Source: Lachnospiraceae bacterium
GTDB taxonomy: Bacteria > Bacillota > Clostridia > Lachnospirales > Lachnospiraceae
DNA: 57,435 nucleotides
Reading direction: 5' to 3'
NCBI GenBank assembly: GCA_017622875.1
Contig: JAGAQG010000043.1
Span: forward strand, 1-57,435
The position numbers and the translations under genes are program-made. Positions within the stretch are counted from its first letter, which is position 1. The number at the start of each line of letters is the position of its first letter. Shown one piece after another: positions 3,085 to 36,809 of the stretch. Under the pieces are notes generated by a model. It worked only from the letters and a program-made list of their open reading frames with translations. It did not search any database and had not been told where the DNA came from.

Positions 3085-3113
3085 TTTACAAATCAAACTA
3101 AATCGTATACACT
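3085..3113 (+). promoter_or_regulatory. Candidate promoter of the dapL-pyrG-gltBD operon
   Basis: TTTACA at 3085-3090 is followed after 17 bases by TACACT (3108-3113). The -10 box is weak; TATACA at 3106 is an alternative. It is the only plausible promoter between the carboxypeptidase gene and the leader hairpin, because the 20 bases between the hairpin and the dapL ribosome site cannot hold one. Confidence 0.35.
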
Positions 3114-3139
3114 ATCTGGCATAGAAAATATGTGATAAA

Positions 3140-3194
3140 TGACAAGGGTGTCAAATAGCCTGCTATTGCGGGCTGATTTGACACCCTTTTTTTC
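3140..3194 (+). terminator. Leader terminator (likely attenuator) before dapL
   Basis: A strong stem pairs 3146-3160 with 3171-3185 (one bulged base) and is followed by seven or more T residues ending near 3193. It lies only about 30 bases before the dapL start, with no room for a promoter in between, so the operon must be read through it. An alternative small hairpin at 3140-3153 (TGAC, six-base loop AAGGGT, GTCA) uses part of the same 5' arm and cannot form at the same time. That arrangement fits regulated antitermination. A plain terminator for the upstream gene, with leaky read-through, is the other reading. Confidence 0.75.
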
Positions 3195-3224: not shown

Positions 3225-4439
3225 ATGTTTAGGGTAAATGAAAACTATCAGAAGCTGCCGGGAAGCTATCTTTTCAGCACCATCGGAAAGAAAGTAGCTG
3301 CATATCAGAATGCGAATCCCGAAAAACAGATTATTCGATTAGGAATCGGTGACGTGACACAGCCAATCGCCCCGGTGATTGTCGAAGCAATGCATAAAGC
3401 AGTCGACGAAATGGGAAATGCAGCAACCTTCCATGGTTATGCCCCAGATCTTGGCTATGAATTCTTACGAAATGCCATCGCAAAAAATGATTATGCAGCA
3501 AGAGGCTGCGATATCAGCGCAGATGAAATTTTCGTATCTGACGGAGCAAAAAGCGATTCAGGAAACATTCAGGAAATCTTCGCACCAGACAACAAAATTG
3601 CAGTGTGCGATCCGGTCTATCCGGTCTATGTAGACTCCAATGTTATGGCAGGAAGAACAGGAATCTACGATGCACAGACAGGAATGTGGAGCAATGTCAT
3701 CTACATGCCATGCACCAAAGAAAACAATTTTGTGCCGGAGTTCCCAAAAAAAGTACCGGATATGATCTATCTTTGCCTGCCAAACAATCCAACAGGAACA
3801 ACAATTACAAAAGCTCAGTTACAGGAATGGGTCGATTATGCGAACAAAAATGGCTCAGTCATCATTTATGATGCAGCCTATGAAGCGTATATCACAGAAG
3901 ATGATGTGGCTCATTCCATTTATGAATGTGAAGGTGCAAAAACCTGTGCCATCGAGCTTAAGAGCTTTTCAAAAAATGCAGGATTTACAGGAGTTCGTCT
4001 TGGCTACACTGTAGTTCCAAAAGACTTAAAATGCGGAGATGTTTCCCTTCACGGCATGTGGGCAAGACGTCATGGAACAAAGTTTAATGGTGCTCCATAC
4101 ATTCAGCAGAGAGCCGGAGAAGCGGTTTATACAGAAGCCGGCAAGGCGCAGTTAAGAGAACAGATTGATTATTATATGAGAAATGCAAAAGCGATCAAAG
4201 AAGGGCTCGCAGATGCAGGCTTTGAAGTATTTGGCGGCGTCAATGCCCCGTACATCTGGTTAAAAACACCGGATCAAATGACTTCCTGGGAATTCTTTGA
4301 TTACTTATTAGAAAAAGCAAATGTGGTCGGAACTCCAGGCTCAGGATTTGGGCCAAGCGGTGAAGGGTATTTCAGACTGACTGCATTTGGAAGTTATGAA
4401 AATACGGTGGCTGCACTGGAGCGCATCCGCCATCTGTAA
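3225..4439 (+). CDS. dapL: LL-diaminopimelate aminotransferase
   Basis: A PLP enzyme that converts tetrahydrodipicolinate and glutamate directly to LL-diaminopimelate and 2-oxoglutarate, the short route to lysine and cell-wall diaminopimelate. The 404 residues match the family length. The N-terminus ([17 protein letters not shown]) and the PLP-lysine motif [15 protein letters not shown] are typical of DapL. The start at 3225 has AGGAGG at 3215-3220. It is the first gene of the operon and is followed after 24 bases by pyrG. Its amino donor is glutamate, which fits the glutamate synthase genes downstream. A terminator-like leader precedes it. Confidence 0.93.
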
Positions 4440-4463: not shown

Positions 4464-6065
4464 ATGGTAAAGTACGTATTTGTAACAGGCGGTGTGGTAT
4501 CCGGCCTTGGAAAAGGAATTACAGCAGCATCTTTGGGGCGCCTCTTAAAAGCCAGAGGCTACCGTGTCACCATGCAGAAATTTGACCCCTACATCAATGT
4601 AGACCCGGGAACCATGAACCCCATCCAGCATGGAGAAGTCTTCGTAACCGATGACGGTACGGAAACAGACCTGGATCTTGGTCATTATGAAAGATTTATT
4701 GACGAAAGTCTGAACTATAATTCGAACATTACAACAGGCAAAATCTACTGGTCGGTACTGAATAAAGAACGTCATGGGGACTATGGCGGCGGTACCGTCC
4801 AGGTCATCCCTCACATTACCAATGAGATTAAGGATCGTTTCTACAAAGCAAAAAGCGAAGAGGAAGAAACCATTTCCATCATTGAAGTGGGCGGTACAGT
4901 CGGAGATATTGAAAGCCAGCCATTCCTCGAAGCCATCAGACAGTTTCAGGCAGAGGTGGGAAGAGAAAATGCAATCCTTATTCAGGTAACACTTATTCCT
5001 TATTTAAAGGCATCCGGTGAAATGAAAACAAAACCGACCCAGATGAGTGTCAAACAGCTTCAGAGCATGGGAATCTGGCCGGACATCTTAGTATGCCGTT
5101 CCGATTACCCTGTAGATGATGCCATGAAAGCCAAAATTGCACAGTTTTGCAATGTAAAGAAGGAACACGTTTTACAGAATCTTGACGCACCATCTCTCTA
5201 CGAAGTTCCCCTGATGATGGAAGAAGAAAGGTTAGCTCAGGCAGTTTGTGACTGTCTGCACATCCCGTGCCCGGAACCGGATTTAGCTGACTGGAAACAG
5301 ATGGTAGCAAATTTACATGCTTCGAAGAGAACAGTTACAATCGCCATTGTAGGCAAATACGTAGCACTCCATGATGCATACCTGAGCGTAGCAGAAGCAT
5401 TAAAACATGGAGGCATTGAAAATAAAGCAAATGTAAATATTCGCTGGATTGATTCGGAAGAACTGACACCGGAAAATTTAGAGGAATATTTATCAGACGT
5501 TCACGGTATTTTAGTACCGGGTGGTTTTGGTCAGAGAGGTACGGAAGGAAAGATCCTCGCCATCGAATATGCCAGAACAAAGAAGATTCCATTCCTTGGC
5601 ATCTGTCTTGGAATGCAGCTTGCAATCGTTGAATTTGCAAGAAATGTGCTGGGACTTAAAGGGGCCGCAAGCATTGAGCTGGAGCCGGAAACACCAGACC
5701 CTGTCATTGCTCTCATGCCTGAACAAAATGGTGTGGAAAACCTTGGCGGAACCTTACGACTTGGTGCATATCCTTGTATTTTGGGAGATGACACCCTTGC
5801 AAAAGAGCTTTACGGAACAAAAGAGATTTCCGAAAGACACAGACATCGCTATGAAGTGAATAATGATTATAGAGAACAGCTTACGAAAAACGGTATGGTA
5901 CTTTCCGGATTATCACCGGATGGAAGAATCGTTGAAATGATCGAACTTGCAGACCATCCATTTTTTGTAGCTACACAGGCGCATCCGGAATTTAAATCCA
6001 GACCGAATCACGCACATCCATTATTTGCCGGTCTGATTCGTGCAGCGCTTTTAGAGGAGGAATAA
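4464..6065 (+). CDS. pyrG: CTP synthase (glutamine-hydrolysing)
   Basis: Converts UTP to CTP with ATP and glutamine ammonia. The 533 residues comprise an N-terminal synthetase domain beginning with the [10 protein letters not shown] loop (residues 8-17) and a C-terminal class I glutamine amidotransferase domain with nucleophile Cys381 in FLGICLGMQ and the late His and Glu in QAHPEF. The ribosome site GAGGAG lies just before the start. It sits 24 bases after dapL and 3 bases before gltB, so it belongs to the same transcript. There is no GGGC transcription start of the kind that controls pyrG in Bacillus subtilis, and the gene has no leader of its own. Confidence 0.97.
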
Positions 6066-6068
6066 GTT

Positions 6069-9000
6069 ATGGATAACCAGAATAGAAATACATTGTATCA
6101 TCCAAGCTTTGAACATGATAACTGCGGTATCGGTGCAGTTGTCAATATCAATGGCACAAAAAGCCATGCAGTCGTAGCAGATGCTTTAAAAATCGTAGAA
6201 CATCTGGAACACCGTGCAGGAAAAGACGCCAAAGGAGAGACTGGTGACGGTGTGGGTATCCTCACTCAGATTTCCCACAAATTCTTCAAAAAGATTTGTC
6301 TGATGGAAGGCATCGAGATTGGAAACGAAAGAGAATACGGTGTTGGAATGTTCTTCTTCCCGCAGAATGAATTGAAACGCAGTCAGGCAATGAAAATGTT
6401 TGAGATCATTGTCAAAAAAGAAGGCATGAAATTCCTTGGCTGGAGAATGGTACCTACTGCTCCGGAGGTTTTAGGAAACAAAGCGAGAGAATGTATGCCG
6501 GTCATCTGTCAGGCATTTATCGAAAAGCCGGAAAATATTTCCGCAGGACTTGATTTCGACCGCAAATTATACGTTGTCAGACGTGTTTTTGAACAGAGCA
6601 ATGACAATACTTACGTTCCGTCGCTTTCCAGCAGAACCATCGTATATAAAGGAATGTTCTTAGTTGGACAGCTTCGTACATTTTTCCTTGATCTTCAGGA
6701 TGAAGACTACGATTCCGCCATTGCCATGGTACATTCCCGTTTCTCTACCAACACCAATCCAAGCTGGGAGAGAGCACATCCAAACCGTTTTATCGTACAT
6801 AACGGTGAAATCAATACAATCAAAGGCAACGCAGACAAGATGCTTGCAAGAGAAGAGACCATGGACAGCAAAAAGCTTTCCGCTGATGACATGACAAAGG
6901 TATTCCCTGTTGTCAATGTGAATGGCTCAGACTCTGCAATGCTTGACAACACATTGGAATTCCTTGTGATGAGCGGCATGGAATTACCACTGGCGGCTAT
7001 GATTACGGTGCCGGAACCGTGGACACACAATGATACGATCTCTCAGGAAGGCAGGGATTTCTATCAGTATTATGCAACCATGATGGAACCATGGGACGGT
7101 CCGGCATCCATCCTTTTCTCCGATGGAGATGTAATGGGCGCGATCTTAGACAGAAACGGACTTCGTCCATCCAGATACTATATTATGGATGACGGAAGAC
7201 TCATTTTATCTTCCGAAGTAGGTGTTTTGGAATTAGATGAAGCACACATTGTAAAGAAGGAAAGACTTCATCCGGGAAAAATGCTTCTCGTGGATACTGT
7301 AAAGAATCATGTATATTCTGACGGGGAGATCAAAGAGCTTTACGCTCATAAAGAGCCTTACGGAGAATGGCTGGACAGCAATCTTGTGACATTAAAGGAA
7401 TTAAAGATTCCAAATGAAAAGGTTCCTGGATTTACAAAGGAAGAGAGAGCAAGATTACAGAAGGCATTCGGATACAGTTATGAAGAATACAGAAGCAGTA
7501 TCTGTACGATGGCATTAAAAGGTGCAGAGGAAATCGGTTCCATGGGTATCGATACTCCGATTGCAGCGCTTTCCAAAGAATACCAGCCATTATTCTACTA
7601 CTTCAAACAGTTGTTTGCTCAGGTTACGAACCCACCAATTGATGCGGTGCGTGAAAAAATCGTGACCTCCACAACCGTTTATGTAGGAAAGAACGGTAAT
7701 CTTCTGGAAGAAAAACCGGAAAACTGTCAGGTATTAAAGATTAACAACCCAATCTTAACAGACCTTGATATGTTAAAGATCAAGACTATGCATAAACCGG
7801 GATTCCAGGTAGCACAGGTGCCAATTACTTACTTTAAGAGCACTCCGATGGACCGCGTCTTAGACCATCTGTTCATCGAAGTCGATAAAGCATACCGTAA
7901 TGGGGCCAATATTCTCGTATTATCTGACCGTGGAGTAGATGAAAATCATGTGGCAATCCCATCTCTTTTAGCGGTAGCAGCAGTCCATAAGCATCTGGTT
8001 CAGACAAAGAAATGTACAGCCATGTCTTTGATCCTGGAATCAGGAGAGCCAAGAGAAGTACATCACTTTGCTACATTGTTAGGCTATGGCGCAAGCGCAG
8101 TCAATCCATACCTTGCACATGCAACCATCGCTGAACTGATCGACGAGGGACTTCTGGATAAGGATTATTATGCAGCAGTGGAAGATTATGATCATGCAAT
8201 CTTACACGGTATCGTAAAAATTGCTTCGAAAATGGGTATTTCCACAATTCAGTCTTACCAGGGCAGCAAGATTTTCGAAGCAATCGGTATTTCTGAAAAA
8301 GTAATTAATCAATATTTTACAGGTACAGTCAGCAGAATCGGCGGTATCACATTGGAAGACATTGCAGCGCAGACAGATGCACAGCATTCCAAGGCATTCG
8401 ATCCTCTGGGACTGGAAACCGACCTGACTTTAAAATCCATCGGACGTCACAAACGTCGTGCCCAGGGTGAAGAGCATCGTTATAATCCGCAGACCATCCA
8501 TATGCTGCAGATGGCCACAAGAGAAGGAAACTACGACAAGTTCGTACAATATACAAAGATGATCGACGGAGAAAACTCAGGCTATTTACGAAGCCTGATG
8601 GATTTTAACTTCCCGGAACAGGGAATTGATATTTCTGAAGTCGAAAGTGAAGAAGAAATCGTAAAACGCTTTAAGACAGGTGCCATGTCCTACGGTTCTA
8701 TTTCCGAAGAAGCCCATGAGGCACTTGCCATCGCCATGAATCATTTGCATGGCAAATCAAACAGCGGTGAAGGCGGTGAAAGTGATGAAAGACTGTTATC
8801 TGCCGGAACCGATCATGACAGAAGTTCTGCAATCAAACAGGTTGCCAGTGGTAGATTTGGTGTAACGAGCCGTTATCTGGTCAGCGCGAAAGAAATCCAG
8901 ATCAAGATGGCTCAGGGCGCAAAACCGGGTGAAGGCGGACACCTCCCGGCAAAGAAAGTGTATCCTTGGATCGCAAAGACAAGACATTCTACACCGGGCG

Positions 9001-10622
9001 TGAGCTTAATTTCCCCGCCGCCGCACCATGACATTTATTCCATCGAGGATTTGGCGCAGTTGATCTATGACCTGAAAAATGCCAACAAAAATGCGCGAAT
9101 CTCCGTAAAACTGGTATCTGAGGCCGGTGTTGGAACGGTTGCAGCCGGTGTTGCAAAAGCAGGTGCGCAGGTCATCCTTGTATCCGGTTATGACGGTGGT
9201 ACAGGTGCTGCACCCCTTAGTTCCATTCACAATGCAGGACTTCCGTGGGAACTTGGCCTTGCGGAAACACATCAGACACTGCTTGCCAACGGTCTTCGTA
9301 ATCGTGTGGTAATCGAGACAGACGGTAAGTTAATGAGTGGACGTGACGTTGCGATCGCAGCTCTTCTTGGTGCTGAGGAGTTTGGCTTCGCGACAGCGCC
9401 GCTGGTAACCTTAGGCTGTGTTATGATGCGTGTCTGCAACCTGGATACCTGTCCGATGGGTGTTGCTACACAGAATCCGGAACTTCGCAAACGTTTTATG
9501 GGTAAACCGGAATATGTGGAAAACTTCATGCTGTTCATCGCACGTCAGCTGAGAGAATATATGGCAAAACTTGGTGTTCGTACTGTCAGCGAGATGGTAG
9601 GACGCACGGATCTTTTAAAGAAGAAAGAACAGTTATCTGAACGTGAAGCAAAAATTGATTTGAGTCGTATTCTTGCCGGAGCACAGAACACTGATCGCAC
9701 ACAGTGTGTATTTGATCCGGAAGCTGTTTACGATTTCAAACTGGAGGAAACAAAGGACGAAGCAGTTCTTTTAAAGAAAAAAGATATTCAGACAGCCATT
9801 TCCCGCGGTACCAAAAAGACAGCCAGTGTTCAATTGACAAATATCGACAGAACCTTTGGTACATTGCTTGGTGCAGAGATTACAAGAAAGCATCCGGAAG
9901 GTCTGGAAGATGATACCATCACCATCGAATGTACAGGTGCAGGTGGGCAGAGCTTCGGCGCGTTCATTCCAAAAGGACTGACCCTTTCTCTCTGCGGTGA
10001 TAGCAATGACTATTTCGGAAAAGGCTTATCAGGCGGTAAACTGGCAGTTTACGCACCGAAAGAAGCAAAATACAATCCGGAAGAAAACATTATCATTGGT
10101 AACGTGGCACTTTATGGTGCAACTTCCGGTGAAGCTTACATTGCAGGTATGGCAGGAGAACGTTTCTGCGTACGTAATTCCGGTGCAACAGCAGTTGTAG
10201 AAGGTGTTGGCGAGCATGGATGTGAATATATGACAGGCGGACGTGTGGTAGTTCTTGGTCCAACAGGAAAGAACTTTGCAGCCGGCATGAGCGGCGGTAT
10301 CGTTTATGTGCTGGATGAACAGAATCATCTGTATCGTCATCTGAACAAGGAAATGATCCTTATGGAAAAGGTAGAGAACAAGTTCGATCAGGAAGAGCTT
10401 CGTTCCATCCTCGAAAAGCATGTGAAATATACAGACTCTGCAAGAGCGAAGGAAGTACTTGAACATTTCGCAGATTATCTGCCGAAATTTAAAAAGCTCA
10501 TTCCTGGAGATTACAAGAAGCTTCTGACCTTATCTGCACAGTTCGAGGAACAGGGCATGAGCAAGGAAGATGCACAGATTGAAGCCTTTTACGCAAGTCT
10601 GGACGCAGCGGGCGCAGAGTAA
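6069..10622 (+). CDS. gltB: Glutamate synthase large subunit
   Basis: Catalyses glutamine plus 2-oxoglutarate to two glutamates. The 1517-residue chain has the family order: N-terminal Ntn amidotransferase domain with nucleophile Cys19 in DNCGIG (a short propeptide of 18 residues would be removed), central domain, FMN-binding synthase domain with the QGAKPGEGG motif, the 3Fe-4S cysteines at 1117, 1123 and 1128, and the C-terminal GXGXG beta-helix repeats near GGQSFGAF and ATSGEAYIAG. Its ribosome site overlaps the end of pyrG, implying coupled translation. It pairs with gltD, 17 bases downstream. Confidence 0.97.
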   Translation: MDNQNRNTLYHPSFEHDNCGIGAVVNINGTKSHAVVADALKIVEHLEHRAGKDAKGETGDGVGILTQISHKFFKKICLMEGIEIGNEREYGVGMFFFPQNELKRSQAMKMFEIIVKKEGMKFLGWRMVPTAPEVLGNKARECMPVICQAFIEKPENISAGLDFDRKLYVVRRVFEQSNDNTYVPSLSSRTIVYKGMFLVGQLRTFFLDLQDEDYDSAIAMVHSRFSTNTNPSWERAHPNRFIVHNGEINTIKGNADKMLAREETMDSKKLSADDMTKVFPVVNVNGSDSAMLDNTLEFLVMSGMELPLAAMITVPEPWTHNDTISQEGRDFYQYYATMMEPWDGPASILFSDGDVMGAILDRNGLRPSRYYIMDDGRLILSSEVGVLELDEAHIVKKERLHPGKMLLVDTVKNHVYSDGEIKELYAHKEPYGEWLDSNLVTLKELKIPNEKVPGFTKEERARLQKAFGYSYEEYRSSICTMALKGAEEIGSMGIDTPIAALSKEYQPLFYYFKQLFAQVTNPPIDAVREKIVTSTTVYVGKNGNLLEEKPENCQVLKINNPILTDLDMLKIKTMHKPGFQVAQVPITYFKSTPMDRVLDHLFIEVDKAYRNGANILVLSDRGVDENHVAIPSLLAVAAVHKHLVQTKKCTAMSLILESGEPREVHHFATLLGYGASAVNPYLAHATIAELIDEGLLDKDYYAAVEDYDHAILHGIVKIASKMGISTIQSYQGSKIFEAIGISEKVINQYFTGTVSRIGGITLEDIAAQTDAQHSKAFDPLGLETDLTLKSIGRHKRRAQGEEHRYNPQTIHMLQMATREGNYDKFVQYTKMIDGENSGYLRSLMDFNFPEQGIDISEVESEEEIVKRFKTGAMSYGSISEEAHEALAIAMNHLHGKSNSGEGGESDERLLSAGTDHDRSSAIKQVASGRFGVTSRYLVSAKEIQIKMAQGAKPGEGGHLPAKKVYPWIAKTRHSTPGVSLISPPPHHDIYSIEDLAQLIYDLKNANKNARISVKLVSEAGVGTVAAGVAKAGAQVILVSGYDGGTGAAPLSSIHNAGLPWELGLAETHQTLLANGLRNRVVIETDGKLMSGRDVAIAALLGAEEFGFATAPLVTLGCVMMRVCNLDTCPMGVATQNPELRKRFMGKPEYVENFMLFIARQLREYMAKLGVRTVSEMVGRTDLLKKKEQLSEREAKIDLSRILAGAQNTDRTQCVFDPEAVYDFKLEETKDEAVLLKKKDIQTAISRGTKKTASVQLTNIDRTFGTLLGAEITRKHPEGLEDDTITIECTGAGGQSFGAFIPKGLTLSLCGDSNDYFGKGLSGGKLAVYAPKEAKYNPEENIIIGNVALYGATSGEAYIAGMAGERFCVRNSGATAVVEGVGEHGCEYMTGGRVVVLGPTGKNFAAGMSGGIVYVLDEQNHLYRHLNKEMILMEKVENKFDQEELRSILEKHVKYTDSARAKEVLEHFADYLPKFKKLIPGDYKKLLTLSAQFEEQGMSKEDAQIEAFYASLDAAGAE

Positions 10623-10639: not shown

Positions 10640-12124
10640 ATGGGAAAACCAACTGGATTTTTAGAATATGAACGCGTGAATGGGCCTGTAACAGAGCCCT
10701 CAGAGCGAGTGAAGAACTTTAAAGAGTTCCATGGAGCATTAAAGATCGAAGAGCAGAGACAGCAGGCAGCCAGATGTATGGAATGTGGAGTGCCATTCTG
10801 TCAGGCAGGTACCATGATTGCAGGGATGGCTTCCGGCTGTCCTCTGCACAATCTGGTGCCGGAAATCAATGATTTAGTTTACAAAGGCAACTGGGAGCAG
10901 GCCTATACGAGACTTTCCAAAACCCACTGCTTCCCGGAATTTACCTCCAGAGTGTGTCCTGCACTCTGTGAGGCAGCCTGTACCTGCGGGCTTATGGATG
11001 CCCCGGTAACGACAAAGGCAAATGAGAGAGCAATCATCGAATATGCTTATGCCAATGACCTTGTAAAGCCGGAGGTACCAAAGGTACGTACTGGCAAAAA
11101 AATTGCAGTGATTGGCAGCGGTCCATCCGGGCTTGCGGCAGCAATGCAGTTAAACAAGCGTGGCCATTCTGTGACTGTTTATGAAAGAAATGACCGGGTG
11201 GGCGGACTTTTGCGTTACGGCATTCCAAATATGAAGCTTGATAAGAGCATCATTGACCGTCGCGTGGAAGTGATGAAAGCATCGGGCATTGAATTTATCT
11301 GCAATGTAAATGTTGGAAAAGACATTACAGGGGAAGAATTATTACAGCAGTACGACCGCATTGTACTGGCCTGCGGTGCTTCCAATCCAAGAAATATCAA
11401 TGTGCCGGGAAGAGATGCGGAAGGAATTTACTTTGCAGTAGATTTCTTAAAACAGGTAACAAAGACATTATTAGATACAAACTTTACAAAATTCCCTTAT
11501 GAGCTTGCCAAAGAGAAACATGTGCTTGTCATCGGCGGCGGTGACACAGGAAATGACTGTGTGGGCACTTCCATCCGTCTGGGTGCTAAAAGCGTGACTC
11601 AGCTGGAAATGATGCCAATGCCACCAAAAGAGAGAACAGCAGCCAATCCATGGCCGGAATGGCCGAAGGTCTTAAAGACAGACTATGGCCAGGAAGAAGC
11701 CATTATGAAATTCGGACACGACCCGCGTGTATATCAGACAACAGTAACTGAATTTATGAAAAATGAAGAAGGTAAGGTATGCGGCGCGAAAATCATCAGT
11801 CTGGCTCCGAAGAAGGACGAAAAGAGCGGCCGTATGATGATGGTACCGGTGGAAGGCACAGAAAAAGAGATTCCGGTAGATTTGGTATTGATTGCAGCAG
11901 GATTTTTAGGCTGTGAGGGTTACGTTGCAGAGACATTTGGTGTAGAATGTAACGAGAGAACCAATATTAAGACTGCACCGGGTGCTTATGAGACTACTGT
12001 GGAACGGGTATTTACAGCCGGAGACATGCACAGAGGACAGTCATTGGTGGTATGGGCTATTGCAGAGGGAAGAGCAGCAGCAAAGGCTGTGGATGAATCT
12101 CTGATGGGCTATACAAACCTTTAG
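10640..12124 (+). CDS. gltD: Glutamate synthase small subunit
   Basis: The NADPH-oxidising, electron-transferring subunit of glutamate synthase. The 494 residues show the N-terminal Fe-S cysteine set (CMECGVPFC and RVCPALCEAACTCG), the FAD-binding loop GSGPSGLAAA near residue 156, and the NADPH-binding loop GGGDTGNDC near residue 298. It is preceded by AGGAGGG and lies 17 bases after gltB. The 43 bases before the next gene contain no promoter or terminator that I can see, so the operon continues. Confidence 0.96.
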   Translation: MGKPTGFLEYERVNGPVTEPSERVKNFKEFHGALKIEEQRQQAARCMECGVPFCQAGTMIAGMASGCPLHNLVPEINDLVYKGNWEQAYTRLSKTHCFPEFTSRVCPALCEAACTCGLMDAPVTTKANERAIIEYAYANDLVKPEVPKVRTGKKIAVIGSGPSGLAAAMQLNKRGHSVTVYERNDRVGGLLRYGIPNMKLDKSIIDRRVEVMKASGIEFICNVNVGKDITGEELLQQYDRIVLACGASNPRNINVPGRDAEGIYFAVDFLKQVTKTLLDTNFTKFPYELAKEKHVLVIGGGDTGNDCVGTSIRLGAKSVTQLEMMPMPPKERTAANPWPEWPKVLKTDYGQEEAIMKFGHDPRVYQTTVTEFMKNEEGKVCGAKIISLAPKKDEKSGRMMMVPVEGTEKEIPVDLVLIAAGFLGCEGYVAETFGVECNERTNIKTAPGAYETTVERVFTAGDMHRGQSLVVWAIAEGRAAAKAVDESLMGYTNL

Positions 12125-12167: not shown

Positions 12168-13466
12168 ATGAGAACAAAAAGAGAAATTCTGGAGCTGCTG
12201 GAAGAAGAGGATGTGAAATTCATCCGTCTGCAGTTCACAGACATGTTTGGTAACTTAAAAAACATTGCGGTAACGGAAAGCCAGTTGATGAGAGTTCTGG
12301 ACAATCGCTTTTCGATGTCCAGCAAAGCGCTGTTTGGAGATGAGAACTTCTGTCAGGATGATTTATATCTGCGTCCGGACTTAGACAGCTTTGTAATCCT
12401 GCCTTGGCGACCACAGCATGGAAAGGTCGCACGTTTTTTGTGTGACATTTATAGGGAGGATGGAACTCCATTTGAGCTGAGTTCTCGTACAATTTTGAAA
12501 AATGTCATTAAATCCGCAGAAGAGAAGGGCTACACCTTCTATGTGGATCCGGATTGTGAATTTTTCTTATTTCACACCGATGAAAACGGGATTCCGACAA
12601 CAGTGACCCATGAAAAAGCGGGCTACATGGATGTGGGACCGATGGATTTGGGGGAAAATCCGAGACGTGACATTGTGCTTGCTTTAGAAGAAATGGGCTT
12701 TGAGGTGGAATCTTCCCACCATGAAAAAGCGCCTGCCCAGCATGAAATTGACTTTAAGGAAGCAGAACCGCTGCAGATCGCAGACTCCATGACGACCTTT
12801 AAATTTGCGGTACGTTCCACAGCAAGACGTTTTGGGCTTCACGCTACCTTTATGCCAAAGCCAAAGAATGGAATCCCGGGAAGCGGACTGCATTTGAATA
12901 TTTCTGTTTATAAGGATGGAAAAAATCTGTTCAATGAAAAGAATGGAGAAATCCGTGAAGAGACCAAATGGTTCATCGGCGGCATCATGGAGCATGTAGA
13001 TGCCATGTGTGCCATCACAAATCCGCTGGTAAATTCCTATAAACGCCTGATGTCCGGCTATTCCGCGCCGAAGGATAAGGTCTGGACAAGAAAGAATGTG
13101 AATGCCCTGGTGAAGGTGCGTCACAGACTTGGAGAAGATACGAAGGTGGATTTAAGATTCCCTGACCCGTCTGCAAACCCATATCTGGCAATTGCAGTAT
13201 GCTTGGCAGCTGGGATTGATGGATTGGAGAGAAAACTTGATTCGGGTATGGAAGCACCAGGATGCTATGAAACCGAAAATGAGATTGAGCAGCTTCCGGG
13301 AACTCTTCGTGAGGCAGTTGCATGGATGAACGGTGATTCTTTCATCGAAGGTGTTCTGGGTAAAGAATTCTGCGAAATCTATGCCGATGCAAAAATGGAA
13401 GAATGGGATAACTATATGGAACAGGTTTCCCAGTGGGAGCTTGATGAGTATTTGTATAGAATTTAA
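12168..13466 (+). CDS. Glutamine synthetase (GlnA) family protein with degenerate active site
   Basis: A 432-residue protein with the whole fold of class I glutamine synthetase, colinear from FIRLQFTDMFG to RFPDPSANPYLA. Key residues differ from the enzyme. The FDGSS signature with the ammonium-site Asp50 is absent (residues 48-56 read FSMSSKALF). The catalytic flap Glu327 is Ser299 (GYSAP instead of GYEAP). Arg339 is Val311 and Arg344 is Lys316. Metal ligands Glu129 and Glu357 are Asp129 and Asp328. Kept are Glu131, Glu186, Glu193, His242, Arg293 and Arg330. The gene lies between gltD and an ANTAR regulator. It may bind nucleotide or glutamine without making glutamine, and a sensor role is my inference. 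An automated pipeline would call it glnA. Confidence 0.88.
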   Translation: MRTKREILELLEEEDVKFIRLQFTDMFGNLKNIAVTESQLMRVLDNRFSMSSKALFGDENFCQDDLYLRPDLDSFVILPWRPQHGKVARFLCDIYREDGTPFELSSRTILKNVIKSAEEKGYTFYVDPDCEFFLFHTDENGIPTTVTHEKAGYMDVGPMDLGENPRRDIVLALEEMGFEVESSHHEKAPAQHEIDFKEAEPLQIADSMTTFKFAVRSTARRFGLHATFMPKPKNGIPGSGLHLNISVYKDGKNLFNEKNGEIREETKWFIGGIMEHVDAMCAITNPLVNSYKRLMSGYSAPKDKVWTRKNVNALVKVRHRLGEDTKVDLRFPDPSANPYLAIAVCLAAGIDGLERKLDSGMEAPGCYETENEIEQLPGTLREAVAWMNGDSFIEGVLGKEFCEIYADAKMEEWDNYMEQVSQWELDEYLYRI

Positions 13467-13478
13467 GAGGTAGTGCGA

Positions 13479-14033
13479 ATGGGCAGCATTCTGATCGCTT
13501 TGCCCAAAATCGAGGATGCCAAACATATCAGCGATTTATTGAAACGCCGGGGACTGGAATCAATCGTTTGCACCAGCGGTGCAAAGGTGCTTTCCATGGT
13601 GCATGAGCTGGACAGTGGTGTGGTAATCTGCGGCCGCCGTTTAACGGATATGCACTATACTCAGTTAGCAGAGTATTTGCCGGAATTTTTTGAAATGCTT
13701 TTGATTGCTTCGCAGAATGCCATTGGGGAATGTACGCCGGGAATTCAGACACTTGGAATTCCATTTCGTGCATCGGAATTGACGGGAACTGTGGAAATGA
13801 TGCTGGCGCAGCAGGTAAGGCTTTTAAAGAAGCAGAAATCTGCGCCGAAGAAAAGATCGGAGCGTGAACAGAATTATATCAATAATGCCAAGTGGGTATT
13901 GATGGAGAGAAACCAGATGACGGAGACAGAGGCATTTCGCTATATACAGAAGTGCAGTATGGATTCCGGAACCAATATGGTGGAGACCGCGCAGAAAATT
14001 TTGCTGTTGATATATGAGCAGGAGCAGCCTTGA
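13479..14033 (+). CDS. ANTAR-domain RNA-binding antiterminator with pseudo-receiver domain
   Basis: A 184-residue regulator. Residues 1-110 resemble a response-regulator receiver, but where the phosphorylated Asp should stand the strand reads VVICGRRL, so phosphorylation is unlikely. Residues 120-180 form the three-helix ANTAR domain (NNAKWVLMERNQMTETEAFRYIQ), which binds tandem hairpins in nascent RNA and prevents termination. ATG at 13479 is preferred over GTG at 13473 because AAGAGG ends 8 bases before it. It lies 12 bases after the synthetase-like gene and closes the operon. Clostridial relatives encoded next to glnA (NitR type) control nitrogen genes. No histidine kinase is nearby, so its signal may come from a protein partner. 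Confidence 0.9.
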   Translation: MGSILIALPKIEDAKHISDLLKRRGLESIVCTSGAKVLSMVHELDSGVVICGRRLTDMHYTQLAEYLPEFFEMLLIASQNAIGECTPGIQTLGIPFRASELTGTVEMMLAQQVRLLKKQKSAPKKRSEREQNYINNAKWVLMERNQMTETEAFRYIQKCSMDSGTNMVETAQKILLLIYEQEQP

Positions 14034-14063
14034 TAAGGCAAATTTGAATAAGTAAGAAAATGT

Positions 14064-14103
14064 ATCCTGGTATAGTAAAAAAGCTATACCGGGATGTTTT
14101 TTT
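14064..14103 (+). terminator. Terminator ending the dapL-to-ANTAR operon
   Basis: A perfect 12-bp stem (14064-14075 with 14084-14095), an 8-base loop and seven T residues follow the ANTAR gene. The next gene starts only 30 bases later. The sequence TGGTATAGT inside the 5' arm also matches an extended -10 promoter element, so yitT transcription may begin within this hairpin. Confidence 0.9.
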
Positions 14104-14132
14104 ATGATAAGATACTGGCTGAGGTGAAAAAT

Positions 14133-14996
14133 ATGAAAAAAAATTTGGGATATGAAATCAAAAATCTGCTTATGATCGCAGCAGCAGCATTGATCTATGC
14201 GGTGGGTATCAGCCTGTTTCTGGATCCGAACCAGCTGGCTCCAGGCGGTGTAACAGGTATTGCAGTTATTCTGAACCGTTTGACAAATATAGAAACCGGT
14301 ACCTTATATTTCCTGCTGAATGTACCAATCGTACTTTTGGGCATTTGGAAATTTGGTGTGCGCTTTATTGCAAAAACGTTTTATGCGATTACGATGGTAT
14401 CTGTTTTTACGAATCTGCTGGGTAATTATGGAGCATTGACAGATGATCTGCTGATTGCAGGCGCTGCGGGCGGTGTTTTGATTGCGGTAGGAATTGGTCT
14501 GATCTTTAAAGCGGGTGCGACGACAGGCGGCACGGATATTCTTATCAAAATTCTTCGTCAGAAATATCGTCATTTAAAGACGGGATTTTTATTTCTGGTA
14601 ACAGATATTATCATTGTCAGCATTTCTGGACTTGTATTTAAAAATTTAAATATTGTATTTTACGCGTTGATGACGGTAGTCATTAGTGGAAAAGCGTTAG
14701 ACTATGTACTTTATGGTGGGGATGAAGCGAAAATGATGTTCATTATGACTGATGAACCGAAGAAGATCAGTGACCGTTTGATGAAAGAACTGGAAGTTGG
14801 CGTTACTTATCTGCATGGTGAAGGCGGTTGGACAGGAAACGAAAAGAAAGTTGTGTTTACCATGGTACCGAATCGTCTTGGCGCAGAGGTGCAGGATATT
14901 GTCAAGCATGAAGACCCTTCCGCATTTATGGTCGTTACAAGTGCAAATGAAATTTATGGCGAAGGATATAAAAATCTATTTGAAGAAGTGATCTAA
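14133..14996 (+). CDS. YitT family membrane protein (DUF161/DUF2179)
   Basis: A 287-residue integral membrane protein. About five hydrophobic helices occupy residues 10-190, including the family motif PNQLAPGGVTGIA and KAGATTGGTDIL. A soluble C-terminal DUF2179 domain follows (GVTYLHGEGGWTG near residue 225). The substrate is unknown; YitT proteins are sometimes suggested to be transporters. The start at 14133 follows GAGGTG by six bases; an upstream ATG at 14094 lies in the terminator and is rejected. It is a single gene, convergent with glmS. Confidence 0.88.
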   Translation: MKKNLGYEIKNLLMIAAAALIYAVGISLFLDPNQLAPGGVTGIAVILNRLTNIETGTLYFLLNVPIVLLGIWKFGVRFIAKTFYAITMVSVFTNLLGNYGALTDDLLIAGAAGGVLIAVGIGLIFKAGATTGGTDILIKILRQKYRHLKTGFLFLVTDIIIVSISGLVFKNLNIVFYALMTVVISGKALDYVLYGGDEAKMMFIMTDEPKKISDRLMKELEVGVTYLHGEGGWTGNEKKVVFTMVPNRLGAEVQDIVKHEDPSAFMVVTSANEIYGEGYKNLFEEVI

Positions 14997-15067
14997 ATAG
15001 GAAGCAGCAGATTGCATTTCCGATATTAAATCAGGCATAAAAAATCCTAATCAGAGGAGATAAGTTA

Positions 15068-15110
15068 GAAATGGGCGCTTAGAAATGCAGTATTTCCAAG
15101 CGCCCATTTC
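15068..15110. terminator. Long hairpin between convergent yitT and glmS
   Basis: A perfect 13-bp outer stem (15068-15080 with 15098-15110) continues into a 5-bp inner stem (15082-15086 with 15092-15096). It sits between two convergent genes and could stop transcription from both sides, but neither strand has a T tract after it. It may act as a Rho-type or 3'-end stabilising structure. Confidence 0.5.
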
Positions 15111-15136
15111 AAGTAGTGCTAAAACAGCAAGTAAAG

Positions 15137-16975: not shown

Positions 16976-16995
16976 TCTCTCTAAAACCTTTCGAA

Positions 16996-19900
16996 TTAAT
17001 GCTGTAATTTACAAATATCTACCAGCGAAGCATTTTCCGGATGGAATCCGCATTTTAAGGTTTCTGCCAGCGCCACTGCCGCATCAAGACTGGTGAGACA
17101 TGGGATACCAAGCTCTACACTTCTTCGGCGTACCTTGACACTGCCGCGAAGCGGGGAACGTCCCTTGGCAGAAGTGGAAATAATATAGTTGATCTTTCCA
17201 CTTTCTAAAATTGACAATGTATTCTGTTCTGATTCATGAATTTTGTGAACCAGTGTAACAGATAATCCGGCATCACGCAGCGCTTTTGTAGTTCCTTCTG
17301 TTGCATAGAGGTGGAATCCCAGATCCGCATATTCTTTGGCAATGCCGATAATTTCCTGCTTATCAGTATCTCTGACAGTGATTAAAACACCGCCCTTGTT
17401 TGTAAAATTGTAACCAGCACCTAAAAGTCCTTTGTAAAGTGCTTCAGACATTGTCGGCGCAATGCCTAAAACTTCACCAGTAGATTTCATTTCAGGTCCC
17501 AGCATTGTATCAAGTCCTGAAAGCTTCTCGAAAGAGAATACAGGAACTTTGATTGCTGTATATGGAGCAGAAGGATATAATCCTGTTCCATAAGGCATCT
17601 CTTTTAATTTCCTTCCAAGCATGACATCGGTAGCAATATCAATCATTGGGATGCCTGTTACTTTGCTTAAATACGGTACGGTTCTTGAAGAACGTGGATT
17701 TACTTCGATGACATATACCTGATCATTGCTGATGACGTACTGGATATTGATCAGTCCTTTGGTATGCAGAGAAATCGCCAGTTTTGTGGAATAATCCACC
17801 AGTTTTTCTTTCTGTTCCTCTGTGATGCTCCATGCAGGATAAACTGCGATGGAGTCACCGGAGTGGATTCCCGCACGGTCAATGTGCTGCATGATACCAG
17901 GAATGAGTACATCTTCACCGTCACAGATTGCATCGACCTCAAGTTCTGTCCCCATCATATATTTATCAATCAGGACAAGGTTTCCTTCCATATGAGAAAG
18001 AATAATGTCCATATATTCTGAAACGTCTGCATCGGAGAATGCAATGATCATATTCTGACCGCCAAGAACGTAGGATGGACGCAAAAGAACAGGATATCCA
18101 AGGGTGTTTGCAGCGACCAGTGCTTCAGCACGGGTATGTACGGTGGTTCCCTTTGGCTGTTCAATGTGAAGATCTTTTAATAATGCTTCAAAACGACCTC
18201 GATCTTCCGCAGCATCAATGCTGTCAGCAGGTGTTCCAAGGATTGGAATATGATTATCAGAGAGCCACTTTGTCAAACGAATCGCAGTCTGTCCGCCGAA
18301 TGCCACAACAGTACCTACCGGTTTTTCGATGCGGATAATGTCAGCCACATCTTCCGGTGTTAACGGCTCAAAATATAATCTGTCTGCGGTATTAAAGTCT
18401 GTAGAAACTGTTTCCGGGTTATTATTTACGATCACCACTTCGTAGCCTGCATTTTTCAGCGCCCATACACAATGTACGGAAGCATAGTCGAACTCGATAC
18501 CCTGACCGATACGGATTGGGCCGGAGCCAAATACGATGACAACAGGTTTCTTTCCTGCGTGCTCTTCAATGAAAGATGCAGCCTCATCTTCCTCATCATA
18601 AGCAGAATAGAAGTAAGGGGTCTGCGCATCAAATTCTGCGCCGCAGGTATCGACCATTTTATAGGAATATGGAAGACGTTTGATACTTTTTGCACCGCTT
18701 AATCGGCAGATTGTTTTATCCGTAAATCCATTCTGTTTTAATATACGAATAAAATCGCTGTCCAATTCCCCTTTTGCTAATTTCTTTTCCATATTACATA
18801 AGTTCACGAGCTTTGCCAGGAACCATTCATCTACCATCGTCAGTTCATGAAGCTTTTTAATGGAATAACCTCTGTATAATGCTTCATAGATTGCGAAAAT
18901 TCTCTCATCATCTTTTGCAAGAATCTTTTCAGTAAGAGATGCATCACTCATTGCGCGCATTTTTGCATCATCCAGATAGTCATGGGAAATTTCAGCACCA
19001 CGCACTGCTTTTAAAAGTGCCTGTTCAAAGCTTCGTCCGATGGACATGACCTCACCGGTTGCTTTCATCTGTGTACCGAGCTGTCTTGCAGCATAAACGA
19101 ATTTATCGAAAGGCCATTTCGGGAATTTTACGACCACATAATCAAGAGTTGGTTCAAAACATGCCTTTGTTTTGCCGGTAATTTCATTAGCAATTTCGTC
19201 CATACGGTATCCGATGGCAATTTTCGCCGCAACGCGGGCGATTGGATAACCTGTTGCCTTACTTGCAAGGGCAGAAGAACGGGAAACACGCGGGTTTACC
19301 TCGATGACTGCATATTCAAAGCTTTCGGGATTTAAGGCAAACTGTACATTACAGCCACCTTCAATACTCATGGCATCAATGATATGCAAAGCTGCACTTC
19401 GAAGCATCTGATATTCCTTATCGGCCAGTGTGAGAGCAGGCGCAACAACGATAGAGTCCCCAGTGTGGATACCTACCGGGTCAAAGTTTTCCATGGAACA
19501 GATCGTAATTACATTGCCTGCACTATCGCGCATGACTTCAAATTCGATTTCTTTCCAGCCTGAGATACATTTTTCTACGAGAATTTGATGAATTGGAGAC
19601 TGACGAAGTCCGGAAGATGCAATTTCACGGAGTTCCTCTTCAGATTCAGCAATACCGCCTCCTGTACCGCCAAGTGTGTAAGCAGGGCGTACAATGACCG
19701 GATATTTTACTGTATGGGCAAATTTTAAAGCACCATCCAGTGTATTTGTGACAACAGAAGGAATGATAGGTTCTCTGATCGCCTCCATTGTATCCTTAAA
19801 AATCTGACGGTCTTCAGCTTTTGCAATCGTTTCAGGATTTGCACCAAGCAGGATAACGCCCTGTTCCTCTAAAAATCCTTCCTTTGCAAGCTGCATAGAA

Positions 19901-20193
19901 AGAGTCAGACCAGTCTGACCGCCGAGGGTAGACAAGATACCATCCGGTTTTTCTTTTTTGATGATCTTTTTTAAGAAATCTAAAGTAAGCGGTTCGATAT
20001 AAACGTGATCTGCCATGGCAGCATCTGTCATAATGGTAGCAGGGTTGGAGTTTGCAAGAACAACTTCCAGACCTTCCTCTTTTAATGCACGACAGGCCTG
20101 AGTACCTGCATAGTCAAATTCAGCAGCCTGACCGATAACGATTGGCCCGGAGCCAATGACGAGAACTTTTTTAAGCTTTGGATTTAATGGCAT
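16996..20193 (-). CDS. carB: Carbamoyl-phosphate synthase large subunit
   Basis: Makes carbamoyl phosphate from bicarbonate, ammonia and two ATP for pyrimidine and arginine synthesis. The 1065 residues contain the two homologous ATP-grasp halves, each opening with a GSGPI-IGQ-EFDYAG/S motif, and a C-terminal MGS-like regulatory domain. The start codon directly abuts the stop of carA. The order carA-carB-glmS forms one minus-strand operon. Confidence 0.97.
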   Translation of the reverse strand: MPLNPKLKKVLVIGSGPIVIGQAAEFDYAGTQACRALKEEGLEVVLANSNPATIMTDAAMADHVYIEPLTLDFLKKIIKKEKPDGILSTLGGQTGLTLSMQLAKEGFLEEQGVILLGANPETIAKAEDRQIFKDTMEAIREPIIPSVVTNTLDGALKFAHTVKYPVIVRPAYTLGGTGGGIAESEEELREIASSGLRQSPIHQILVEKCISGWKEIEFEVMRDSAGNVITICSMENFDPVGIHTGDSIVVAPALTLADKEYQMLRSAALHIIDAMSIEGGCNVQFALNPESFEYAVIEVNPRVSRSSALASKATGYPIARVAAKIAIGYRMDEIANEITGKTKACFEPTLDYVVVKFPKWPFDKFVYAARQLGTQMKATGEVMSIGRSFEQALLKAVRGAEISHDYLDDAKMRAMSDASLTEKILAKDDERIFAIYEALYRGYSIKKLHELTMVDEWFLAKLVNLCNMEKKLAKGELDSDFIRILKQNGFTDKTICRLSGAKSIKRLPYSYKMVDTCGAEFDAQTPYFYSAYDEEDEAASFIEEHAGKKPVVIVFGSGPIRIGQGIEFDYASVHCVWALKNAGYEVVIVNNNPETVSTDFNTADRLYFEPLTPEDVADIIRIEKPVGTVVAFGGQTAIRLTKWLSDNHIPILGTPADSIDAAEDRGRFEALLKDLHIEQPKGTTVHTRAEALVAANTLGYPVLLRPSYVLGGQNMIIAFSDADVSEYMDIILSHMEGNLVLIDKYMMGTELEVDAICDGEDVLIPGIMQHIDRAGIHSGDSIAVYPAWSITEEQKEKLVDYSTKLAISLHTKGLINIQYVISNDQVYVIEVNPRSSRTVPYLSKVTGIPMIDIATDVMLGRKLKEMPYGTGLYPSAPYTAIKVPVFSFEKLSGLDTMLGPEMKSTGEVLGIAPTMSEALYKGLLGAGYNFTNKGGVLITVRDTDKQEIIGIAKEYADLGFHLYATEGTTKALRDAGLSVTLVHKIHESEQNTLSILESGKINYIISTSAKGRSPLRGSVKVRRRSVELGIPCLTSLDAAVALAETLKCGFHPENASLVDICKLQH

Positions 20194-21279
20194 TTAAAAT
20201 TCCCTCCCTTCCATAAGGTCAATAAATTTCTGGAATAAATATTCTGTATCGTGTGGACCGCCGCAGGCTTCCGGATGGAACTGAACGGAAAATCCAGGAA
20301 ATGACTGATAGGAAATACCTTCGCAGGTATCATCATTTAAATTGGTAAAGGTAAGCTTTGCGCATTCCGGAAGAGAATCGGTTTTTACAGCATAACCGTG
20401 ATTCTGACTTGTGATGTAAATCTTCTTTGTAGAATGCTCTAATACCGGCTGGTTCGCACCTCGATGTCCGTATTTTAATTTTTCTGTGTCAGCACCGTTT
20501 GCCAGAGCTAATAGCTGATGTCCAAGGCAAATGCCGAAAATCGGAATCTTGTGAGTACAAAGCTTTTTCAGCTCTTCAACAATCGCAAGATTTTCTTTTG
20601 GGTTTCCTGGACCATTGCTCAACATAATTCCGTCCGGCTTTAGGCTAAGAATCTCTTCACAGGTCGTATGGGCAGGAACTACAGTGACCTGACATCCAAG
20701 TGCATGAAGTTTTCTTGCGATATTCTGTTTTGCACCGAAATCCCAGAGTACTACATGGTGTTCTGTAACTCCGACAGGAATTTCATAAGATTCTTTGCAG
20801 GTTACGGAACGCACTGCATTTTTGATGGACCAGTCAGAAAGCATTTTTGCATCCTCCGGCTTTGGCTCTGTCATGGTAAGACGTCCGTTCATGACACCTT
20901 CCTGCCTGATCTTCTTTGTCAGTGCTCTTGTATCTATATGACAAATGCCCGGTATTCCTTCTTTCTTTAACCAGGAGTCTAAGTCCATCTGGCATCGAAA
21001 GTTGGACGGGGCATTGCAAAATTCTTTCGTTATGTAGGCACTCATATGAATCCCATTGCTTTCAAAGTCACCTGTGTTCACACCATAGTTCCCAATCAAC
21101 GGGAAAGTCTGAACGACCATCTGACCATAATAGCTAGGGTCAGTTAATGTTTCTGTATAACCTGTCATAGCGGTCGTGAAAACGACCTCAGCGATGATGT
21201 CATCGACGAGCGGTGCACCAAAGTGAGTTCCTTTATAACAGGTTCCGTCTGCAAGCTGCAAATAAATCGCTTTTTCCAT
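20194..21279 (-). CDS. carA: Carbamoyl-phosphate synthase small subunit
   Basis: Glutaminase subunit that feeds ammonia to CarB. The 361 residues show the N-terminal CPSase domain (GTHFGAP, TAMTGYTETLTDPSYYGQ) and a C-terminal class I amidotransferase domain with the nucleophile in FGICLGHQ and the His-Glu pair in QFHPEACGG. The ribosome site GAGGTGG is 6 bases upstream of the start. It is the first gene of the carA-carB-glmS operon and is preceded by a consensus-like promoter and a leader terminator. Confidence 0.96.
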   Translation of the reverse strand: MEKAIYLQLADGTCYKGTHFGAPLVDDIIAEVVFTTAMTGYTETLTDPSYYGQMVVQTFPLIGNYGVNTGDFESNGIHMSAYITKEFCNAPSNFRCQMDLDSWLKKEGIPGICHIDTRALTKKIRQEGVMNGRLTMTEPKPEDAKMLSDWSIKNAVRSVTCKESYEIPVGVTEHHVVLWDFGAKQNIARKLHALGCQVTVVPAHTTCEEILSLKPDGIMLSNGPGNPKENLAIVEELKKLCTHKIPIFGICLGHQLLALANGADTEKLKYGHRGANQPVLEHSTKKIYITSQNHGYAVKTDSLPECAKLTFTNLNDDTCEGISYQSFPGFSVQFHPEACGGPHDTEYLFQKFIDLMEGREF

Positions 21280-21315
21280 AAATCCACCTCATTTGTGTTG
21301 ACTTGTTGATTCCTA

Positions 21316-21384
21316 AACAAAAAAAGAAAAGGCGTCCATGAACTAAATGCGAAAAAATTTCGCACTTAGCTCGTGAACGCCTTT
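21316..21384 (-). terminator. Leader terminator between the carA promoter and carA
   Basis: On the minus strand an 8-bp base (21328-21335 with 21377-21384) and further paired blocks inside give a hairpin of about 57 bases, followed by a T-rich run at 21316-21327. The promoter at 21397-21425 points into it, so carA-carB-glmS transcripts must pass it. I see no PyrR-binding loop, T-box or obvious leader peptide. Confidence 0.75.
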
Positions 21385-21396
21385 GTTCTTCCCGCT

Positions 21397-21425
21397 ATTC
21401 TAGCATTATGAAATCCATTCGTCAA
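21397..21425 (-). promoter_or_regulatory. Promoter of carA-carB-glmS
   Basis: On the minus strand TTGACG (21420-21425) and TAGAAT (21397-21402) are separated by exactly 17 bases. The predicted start, near 21390-21392, lies in a GGG run a few bases before the leader terminator stem. Confidence 0.8.
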
Positions 21426-21452
21426 GAACAAATATAAACACGTATCTCTTTC

Positions 21453-21481
21453 TTGACACAGCTGGGAAGATGTGGTATTTA
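21453..21481 (+). promoter_or_regulatory. Promoter of asnB-purC-purA-purB
   Basis: TTGACA at 21453-21458 is a perfect -35 box; TATTTA follows after 17 bases at 21476-21481. Transcription would begin near 21488, giving a leader of about 165 bases with several hairpins before asnB. Confidence 0.7.
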
Positions 21482-21495
21482 TTGAATAGATATTG

Positions 21496-21605
21496 GCGAT
21501 TGAGTTCGCAAAAAAGGGGTCGCACAACGGGGTGCGGCAAATAGGTATGACACGGATAGCAGATATTCGTCCTATGCAAGGGACGAGTGTCTGTTTTTTT
21601 GTTTT
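21496..21605 (+). promoter_or_regulatory. asnB leader: tandem six-base-loop hairpins and antiterminator/terminator switch
   Basis: Four structures can be drawn. Hairpin A (21496-21509) has a 4-bp stem and loop TTGAGT. Hairpin B (21519-21538) has a 7-bp stem and six-base loop AACGGG, with A at position 1 and G at position 4 as in ANTAR target loops. An antiterminator pairs 21541-21545 with 21571-21575 and 21552-21558 with 21564-21570. A terminator pairs 21560-21572 with 21580/81-21593 and ends in a T run to 21605. The last two share 21560-21575 and exclude each other. The ligand could be the ANTAR protein encoded at 13479-14033. T-box features are absent. Confidence 0.65.
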
Positions 21606-21654
21606 TGGAAATGATTGGAAACATCGTTCATACCGGGAATGAGGAGGAAAACTT

Positions 21655-23238: not shown

Positions 23239-23254
23239 GAAGGAGACAAAAGAA

Positions 23255-23968: not shown

Positions 23969-23996
23969 TATCTAAAGGATCAATGGAGGGTAAATT

Positions 23997-25274: not shown

Positions 25275-25284
25275 GAGAGTTACG

Positions 25285-36790: not shown

Positions 36791-36809
36791 TTATTATTAA
36801 ATTACCATG

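Follow-up and report, generated by a model that had tools for sequence, protein, structure and literature searches.

An eroded glutamine synthetase homologue beside an ANTAR antiterminator, a candidate nitrogen sensor in a Lachnospiraceae bacterium

That glutamine synthetase (GS) can act as a nitrogen sensor besides its enzymatic role is long established. The type I-alpha GS (GSI-alpha) of Bacillus signals nitrogen excess by binding GlnR and TnrA in its active-site pore, where the E flap, the D50 loop and Arg316 (R339 in the numbering used below) contact GlnR, and where Glu304 (E327), steadied by Arg62, reads the glutamine amide (PMC9249791). In the AmiC-AmiR and NasS-NasT systems, a ligand-binding partner encoded together with the ANTAR protein holds the latter until the ligand alters the complex (PMC3795266). 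In Clostridium saccharobutylicum, the genes for GS and glutamate synthase are under the ANTAR antiterminator NitR, which induces nitrogen genes under nitrogen limitation; the part of that report used here describes no sensing role of GS toward NitR (PMC6316151). Finally, ANTAR leaders carrying a dual hexaloop are known before nitrogen genes in Firmicutes (PMC3369931). Here we describe a 57,435-nt stretch of a Lachnospiraceae genome (contig JAGAQG010000043.1; hereafter the window), in which a GSI-alpha homologue with an eroded active site is followed by a gene for an ANTAR protein (Table 1). Our best reading, to which sequence comparison leads us to assign a probability of roughly 60%, is that this homologue is a pseudoenzyme that senses nitrogen status and, as a ligand-reading partner, gates the adjacent ANTAR protein.

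The homologue is a single intact open frame of 432 aa, whose nearest solved structures are the Gram-positive GSI-alpha enzymes 7tdp and 4lnf (E about 1e-129, nearly full length), and which scores 353 bits against Pfam Gln-synt_C. Its fold and length, together with the lack of the GSI-beta insertion, place it in class I-alpha; against the GlnA equivalog TIGR00653 it reaches 382.5 bits, under the cut-off of 429.15. When it is aligned to B. subtilis GS, with the active site numbered as in the Salmonella enzyme, seven of the 13 core residues prove to be replaced (D50 by Ser, E129 by Asp, E327 by Ser299, R339 by Val311, R344 by Lys316, R355 by Lys and E357 by Asp), and these are the very seven by which an active type I glutamate-ammonia ligase would be recognized. 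E131, E212, E220, G265, H269, R321 and R359 are retained. A first-pass annotation of the window had already pointed to a GS homologue with replaced signature residues and proposed aligning it to solved GSI enzymes; all six changes that it listed (at D50, E129, E327, R339, R344 and E357) stand in our alignment, while R355 to Lys and N264 to Pro had escaped it. The latter, as well as a change of the residue matching B. subtilis Arg62, was left out of our count of losses, since both positions vary widely among relatives with an intact core (130 and 103 of 201 tree rows, respectively). D50 and E327 form the ammonium site, and R339, R344 and R355 are the ATP/phosphate arginines; E131, G265, R321 and R359, which hold the head group of the amino acid, persist (R359 for the most part), as do the ligands of the n1 metal. 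The homologue is probably no longer the ammonium-assimilating enzyme of the cell.

It could nevertheless be a slow but working GS, which would contribute to supply beside glutamate synthase and act on a regulator only secondarily, as in Bacillus. This would accord with the conservative nature of four of the changes (E129D, E357D, R344K and R355K), in that both n2-metal ligands went from Glu to Asp and H269 is retained, with the operon shared with glutamate synthase, and with the closest relative (L005/L094), which keeps 12 of the 13 core residues, having only R339P, and scores above the GlnA cut-off. However, D50, E327 and R339 became Ser, Ser and Val, metal ligands too have been lost in other family members, and the genome carries two type III GSs, the 698-aa one of which aligns with the solved GSIII 3o6x from end to end. 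We thus consider a slow enzyme unlikely, albeit the foremost of the alternatives. The two type III enzymes also remove the objection that the first-pass annotation had foreseen to its own proposal, namely a genome with no other GS. Among the 100 family genomes searched, 98 have a type III GS. The two without are G020, which is incomplete and has no GS whatever, and G083, whose sole GS is an intact ANTAR-linked GlnA with a complete core of 13 residues. The 98 include G085, whose type III gene is broken up and contains stops; there, too, the linked GlnA has lost none of the 13. The two cases of G083 and G085 are suggestive of erosion being allowed only where another GS works.

The pairing of GS with ANTAR is the rule among relatives. 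In the family search, a GS match at E<=1e-30 was found in 89 of the 100 genomes (G064 and G096 having only distant ones, at about 33% identity) and an ANTAR domain above the cut-off in 89 of 100; of the matches, 90 were read out and 10 weaker, distant ones (29-38% identity) left out. An ANTAR gene lies downstream of GS on the same strand in 87 of these 90 loci, as expected for a ligand-gated pair in which the partner gene adjoins the ANTAR gene, with gaps of -214 to 332 nt as measured between stop-to-stop frames. Of the remaining three loci, L035 stands at a contig end, L071 holds a second GS copy that is unlinked, and the copy at L093 is broken. With a class search (69 of 80 matches other than the window read) and a named set (best 80 of 588 confirmed) added, 208 of 241 GS open reading frames are ANTAR-linked. 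These 241 collapse to 231 distinct sequences, comprising 200 linked, 24 unlinked (at least 600 nt seen downstream) and seven excluded ones, of which six stand at contig ends (one, L098, is eroded) and one is L093 (unlinked, broken, with three losses). A second group of ANTAR-linked homologues, at loci L078-L093, is more distant (33-41% identity to the window protein); its members are about 390-440 aa long, and many of them lack E327.

The core of 13 residues is complete in 103 of the 200 distinct linked GSs; a single loss is seen in 34 and two to eight losses in 63, whereas the 24 intact unlinked GSs show no loss (97/200 vs 0/24; Fisher p 7e-7, not corrected for relatedness). Two or more losses occur in 36 of 87 linked GSs of the family sample versus 8 of 45 of the class sample. 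On a quick maximum-likelihood tree of 201 rows (200 GS sequences plus B. subtilis), computed with the scored columns omitted and after removal of rows more than 85% identical with the same any-loss state, the state of two or more losses requires at least 25 changes; by position, 15 changes are needed for D50, 25 for E327, 26 for R339, 14 for R344 and 17 for R355. The window GS belongs to a 16-member clade (branch support 99) in which every protein has at least one loss, with R339 and R355 each lost in 15; ANTAR adjoins GS in 15 members, and the remaining one ends at a contig edge. Erosion is therefore clade-wide around the window and repeated elsewhere. The first-pass annotation had asked whether the substitutions mark a clade always next to ANTAR genes: a clade that shares losses exists, yet losses also recur outside it, again in genes beside ANTAR, and are graded, so that the picture is wider than one clade, about half of the linked GSs being intact. 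In one linked GS (L218, G236), the alignment is gapped where E327 of the flap would stand, and R344K, R355K and R359C are present as well.

Which residues go and which stay bears on three further alternatives. First, the protein could be a ligase for another amine or acid, comparable to gamma-glutamylmethylamide or gamma-glutamylputrescine synthetases, with a rebuilt ammonium site. In the 63 GSs with two or more losses, however, 177 of the 315 cells for D50, E327, R339, R344 and R355 are losses, which affect the ATP/phosphate arginines as often as the ammonium residues; moreover, the window protein lies far under the relevant cut-offs (306 of 470 bits for type III glutamate-ammonia ligase, 245 of 650 for gamma-glutamylputrescine synthetase), and its neighbours are glutamate synthase and ANTAR rather than amine catabolism. 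We regard a new ligase as very improbable. Second, what the protein senses could be no amino acid at all but 2-oxoglutarate, ATP/ADP or AMP, for instance, or it could be a mere scaffold for the ANTAR protein. The loss of the E327 and Arg62 glutamine contacts would suit such a role, and 8ooq is, by its title, the structure of a methanogen GS with 2-oxoglutarate. In the same 63 GSs, however, E131, R321 and R359 are lost in only 9 of 189 cells, and G265 and R321 in none; among all 200, R321 and G265 are unchanged in 200 and E131 in 198, and on the tree R321 and G265 changed 0 times, E131 twice and R359 five times. This suggests that an amino acid is still held, although structural constraint alone could explain it too, and we find a different ligand or a scaffold role quite unlikely. 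Third, a decaying pseudogene beside a working ANTAR gene would be consistent with the graded loss across the family and with the broken and eroded copy L093. Against this, the window frame is intact, the 63 eroded linked genes are single frames of 390-444 aa, and relatives at 57-65% identity share the frame with dN of 0.27-0.38 and dS saturated or 2.6 (among pairs with at least three losses, dS was never below 1.5); the amino-acid-site residues and the ANTAR linkage also persist. Decay is the least probable explanation of all, and it, the slow enzyme and the new ligase all rank below the sensor.

The neighbouring gene, which the first-pass annotation had taken for an RNA-binding ANTAR regulator, is indeed one: its ANTAR domain (PF03861) scores 60.7 bits against a Pfam cut-off of 27.3, and it is the only ANTAR above that cut-off in the genome. 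Its N-terminal fold is predicted to be receiver-like (AF2 pLDDT 95), and Foldseek of the model returns Rv1626 and EutV as the best matches, with FixJ and AmiR further down the list. In an alignment to Rv1626, the phospho-acceptor position is occupied by Gly54, and only seven of 209 linked ANTAR proteins have an Asp there; the window protein thus lacks the receiver phospho-acceptor Asp of a phospho-activated response regulator of the EutV type. Since the receiver is a pseudo-receiver, phosphorylation appears an unlikely signal.

In search of the RNA target of the ANTAR protein, we found, ahead of GS and other genes in related loci, a hairpin with the hexaloop A[AG][AG]GG[CT], followed by a T-tailed terminator. 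The loop and 3' arm of the hairpin are complementary to the 3' arm of the terminator, and hence the two structures are mutually exclusive. The leader of the window operon folds into the terminator form at -33.3 kcal/mol (z -7.9), and its 5' part alone into two hairpins at -16.8 kcal/mol. In many loci a TTGACA/TATAAT-like promoter is seen by eye directly upstream, which allows for a hairpin close to the 5' end of the mRNA; directly upstream of the carA leader stands the promoter-like TTGACG-17-TAGAAT. Both leaders of the window present what is expected of an ANTAR target RNA, a first hairpin whose hexaloop carries A1 and G4, and a terminator that excludes it. Downstream of it the fold shows a second hairpin, whose loop is by eye no conserved A1-G4 hexaloop. 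The dual-hexaloop leaders share with these the A1 and G4 of the hexaloop, the antitermination geometry and the nitrogen genes downstream; the window type differs from what is described there in having one conserved hexaloop hairpin that overlaps the terminator itself, the second hairpin being variable (PMC3369931, in part). Rfam offers no family for the leaders at gathering score; all matches from permissive scans of both leader regions lay below gathering, mostly to microRNA or unrelated small-RNA families, and were set aside. A strict dual-hexaloop scan of the window was empty, and the same scan over related loci gave 35 matches, against 9 in shuffles, many of which looked spurious on inspection by eye, and was likewise rejected, having pointed the way to the actual motif.

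A covariance model, R1, was built from 38 sequences, the window's included, and searched over the 2.74 Mb genome. Strong covariation in the first stem was not used as evidence, because the seeds were picked by a regular expression requiring at least five pairs and are hence biased. Six matches were obtained at E<=1, five of which are not seeds, and all six stand before nitrogen or glutamine genes, namely this operon, carA-carB, a type III GS (whose start lies 41 nt downstream of the leader), an amtB-PII fusion, purF and a glnQ-type amino-acid ABC transporter. Of 12 selected family genomes that carry the GS-ANTAR pair, several of which contributed seeds, 11 have R1 matches, 32 in total. Of 30 located leaders, 24 stand before GS (3), type III GS (7), asnB (4), gltB (3), purF (2), carA (2), amtB (2) and pyrG (1); among the other six, purA, eutA, a transposase and an unidentified gene account for one each, and two look spurious. 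In contrast, eight of 10 family genomes without ANTAR have no R1 match and the other two have three weak ones (E 0.17-0.33); at E<=0.1 there are 23 matches in the 12 genomes versus 0 in the 10.

The second type III GS of the genome (L183 2663-4774, G000:C10) has no R1 match at E<=1, and the two isoenzymes may thus be regulated differently. The operon of the glnQ-type transporter has two R1-type leaders in tandem, one of them weaker (L174 1448-1548; G000:C10 about 67527-67627). The asnB gene of the window has no R1-type leader and has another terminator-like hairpin upstream (21547-21605, plus strand); an asnB-like gene with an R1-type leader occurs in four relatives (G051, G011, G058 and G039). 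In G083, the genome without a type III GS, the sole leader match (L263, G083:C64:2126-2168, E 0.17) lies ahead of a eutA gene, hinting that the ANTAR protein there may serve ethanolamine use.

The model that we propose for a sensor GS runs as follows. The eroded GS would bind glutamine or glutamate in its old substrate pocket, which may still hold an amino acid, probably glutamine in an altered way, since the head-group residues persist while those for ammonium, ATP and phosphate go. When glutamine is plentiful, GS would hold the ANTAR protein at the ring interface, at the E flap, the D50 loop and the R339 region, and the terminators would form. When glutamine falls, the freed ANTAR protein would bind the 5' hexaloop hairpin of the leader and block formation of the terminator. 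Synthesis of glutamine itself would fall to the two type III enzymes, one of them preceded by an R1 leader of its own. The eroded surface is thus that of regulator docking, since GlnR docks on the E flap, the D50 loop and Arg316 (R339) in Bacillus, and the former catalytic loops would now serve the ANTAR partner. By analogy with AmiC-AmiR and NasS-NasT, sequestration under nitrogen plenty would be the simplest such scheme, its direction, ligand and contact all being inferred. A broader version, which we put at somewhat short of even odds, holds that, in a large bacterial family, GS has on many occasions turned into a nitrogen receptor without catalysis, with the amino-acid pocket kept and the loops rebuilt for ANTAR, that the pair controls glutamine uptake, synthesis and use through hexaloop attenuators, and that catalysis is left to type III GS.

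Several observations weigh against this model. The Bacillus glutamine contacts E327 and Arg62 are both missing in the window GS, so that glutamine, whose binding is putative, would be held differently or the ligand is another. With 103 of 200 linked GSs intact, sensing, if that is the job, does not require erosion. The phylogenetically independent comparison of linkage with erosion rests on only seven pairs, the excluded unlinked copy L093 is eroded as well as broken, and in the genomes with linked and unlinked copies (G053, G141 and G197) only the linked copy of G053 has lost a core residue; we therefore make no claim that linkage causes loss. As for the leaders, the whole-genome E-values of R1 are modest (0.01 to 0.3), a second hexaloop sought upstream was not found (1 of 46 vs 1.9 expected), unlike in the published dual motif, and G010, whose GS with eight losses is among the most eroded, has no R1 match in the genome search. 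The pseudoenzyme sensor put forward in the first-pass annotation is therefore partly borne out, by the other GSs in the genome, the shared losses and the leaders before nitrogen and glutamine genes. Its appeal to Bacillus GlnA holds as a precedent for a regulator-binding GS and calls for caution where the residues that read the glutamine amide are concerned.

Set against the described systems, the locus resembles each in part. As in C. saccharobutylicum, the GS and ANTAR genes stand together with glutamate synthase. The GS of that species, however, is the assimilating enzyme, whereas here it is eroded and type III GSs are present. The residues eroding in the window GS are those that contact GlnR in Bacillus; there, however, GlnR and TnrA bind DNA and GS is a full enzyme, whereas here an ANTAR protein that binds RNA is the predicted partner of a GS that has probably lost catalysis. 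The receiver-like fold of AmiR matches the model of the window ANTAR protein, whereas the sensors of AmiC-AmiR and NasS-NasT are described as binding-protein-like amide or nitrate receptors, not synthetase homologues, and the ligand frees the ANTAR protein there, while here abundance is proposed to hold it. Among the structure matches of the window GS is also lengsin (2j9i), a vertebrate GS-like protein of the lens that reportedly has no synthetase activity; it would share with our candidate a GS fold without that activity and differ in being a lens protein that is not known to have a regulator partner. In the open-licence literature we found no report of catalytic erosion of an ANTAR-linked GS or of an R1 regulon in Lachnospiraceae. 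The GS-ANTAR pairing is already known from NitR; the repeated erosion of the GS appears to be new.

Collectively, these findings suggest that evolution may have split the jobs of enzyme and sensor repeatedly, and the spectrum from intact to eroded lets one ask what a sensor needs beyond the enzyme. They also provide a concrete candidate glutamine regulon for Lachnospiraceae-type gut bacteria, with attenuator leaders, one ANTAR protein and one candidate sensor, and caution that genes annotated glnA beside ANTAR should not automatically be counted as ammonium-assimilating in metabolic models.

Table 1. Features of the GS-ANTAR operon and of the second leader locus in the window.
Feature	Position	Strand	Evidence and remarks
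Promoter-like TTTACA-17-TACACT	3085..3113	+	ahead of operon leader; 9/12 consensus letters; weak
ANTAR-type attenuator leader, hexaloop AAGGGT hairpin	3138..3193	+	loop and 3' arm complementary to T-tailed terminator arm; R1 24.6 bits, itself one of 38 seeds
LL-diaminopimelate aminotransferase, first gene of operon	3225..4439	+	TIGR03542 615 bits, above cut-off
pyrG, glutamine-hydrolysing CTP synthase	4464..6065	+	TIGR00337
gltB, glutamate synthase large subunit	6069..10622	+	profile matches
gltD, glutamate synthase small subunit	10640..12124	+	TIGR01317
GSI-alpha homologue, eroded active site, proposed sensor pseudoenzyme	12168..13466	+	
ANTAR antiterminator with pseudo-receiver domain, NitR-like	13473..14033	+	
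Terminator-like hairpin at operon end	14062..14097	+	15 pairs, T tail; pattern match only
carB, carbamoyl-phosphate synthase large subunit, putative target	16996..20193	-	
carA, glutamine-hydrolysing carbamoyl-phosphate synthase small subunit, putative target	20194..21279	-	
Second attenuator leader copy, ahead of carA-carB (glmS next)	21325..21390	-	R1 29.0 bits; not a seed

The six genes of the operon, from the aminotransferase to ANTAR, are separated by short gaps. In the stretch holding the promoter-like site ahead of the leader, the scan returned three sites, two of them on the opposite strand, versus 0.5 expected. Beside the operon (14094-26700) lie glutamine users and purine genes, namely glmS, carB, carA and asnB, followed by frames that by eye are purC-, purA- and purB-like. 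Further away, at 36690-36791 on the minus strand, a THF riboswitch stands ahead of a gene for a 186-aa membrane protein, which by eye resembles a folate transporter component.
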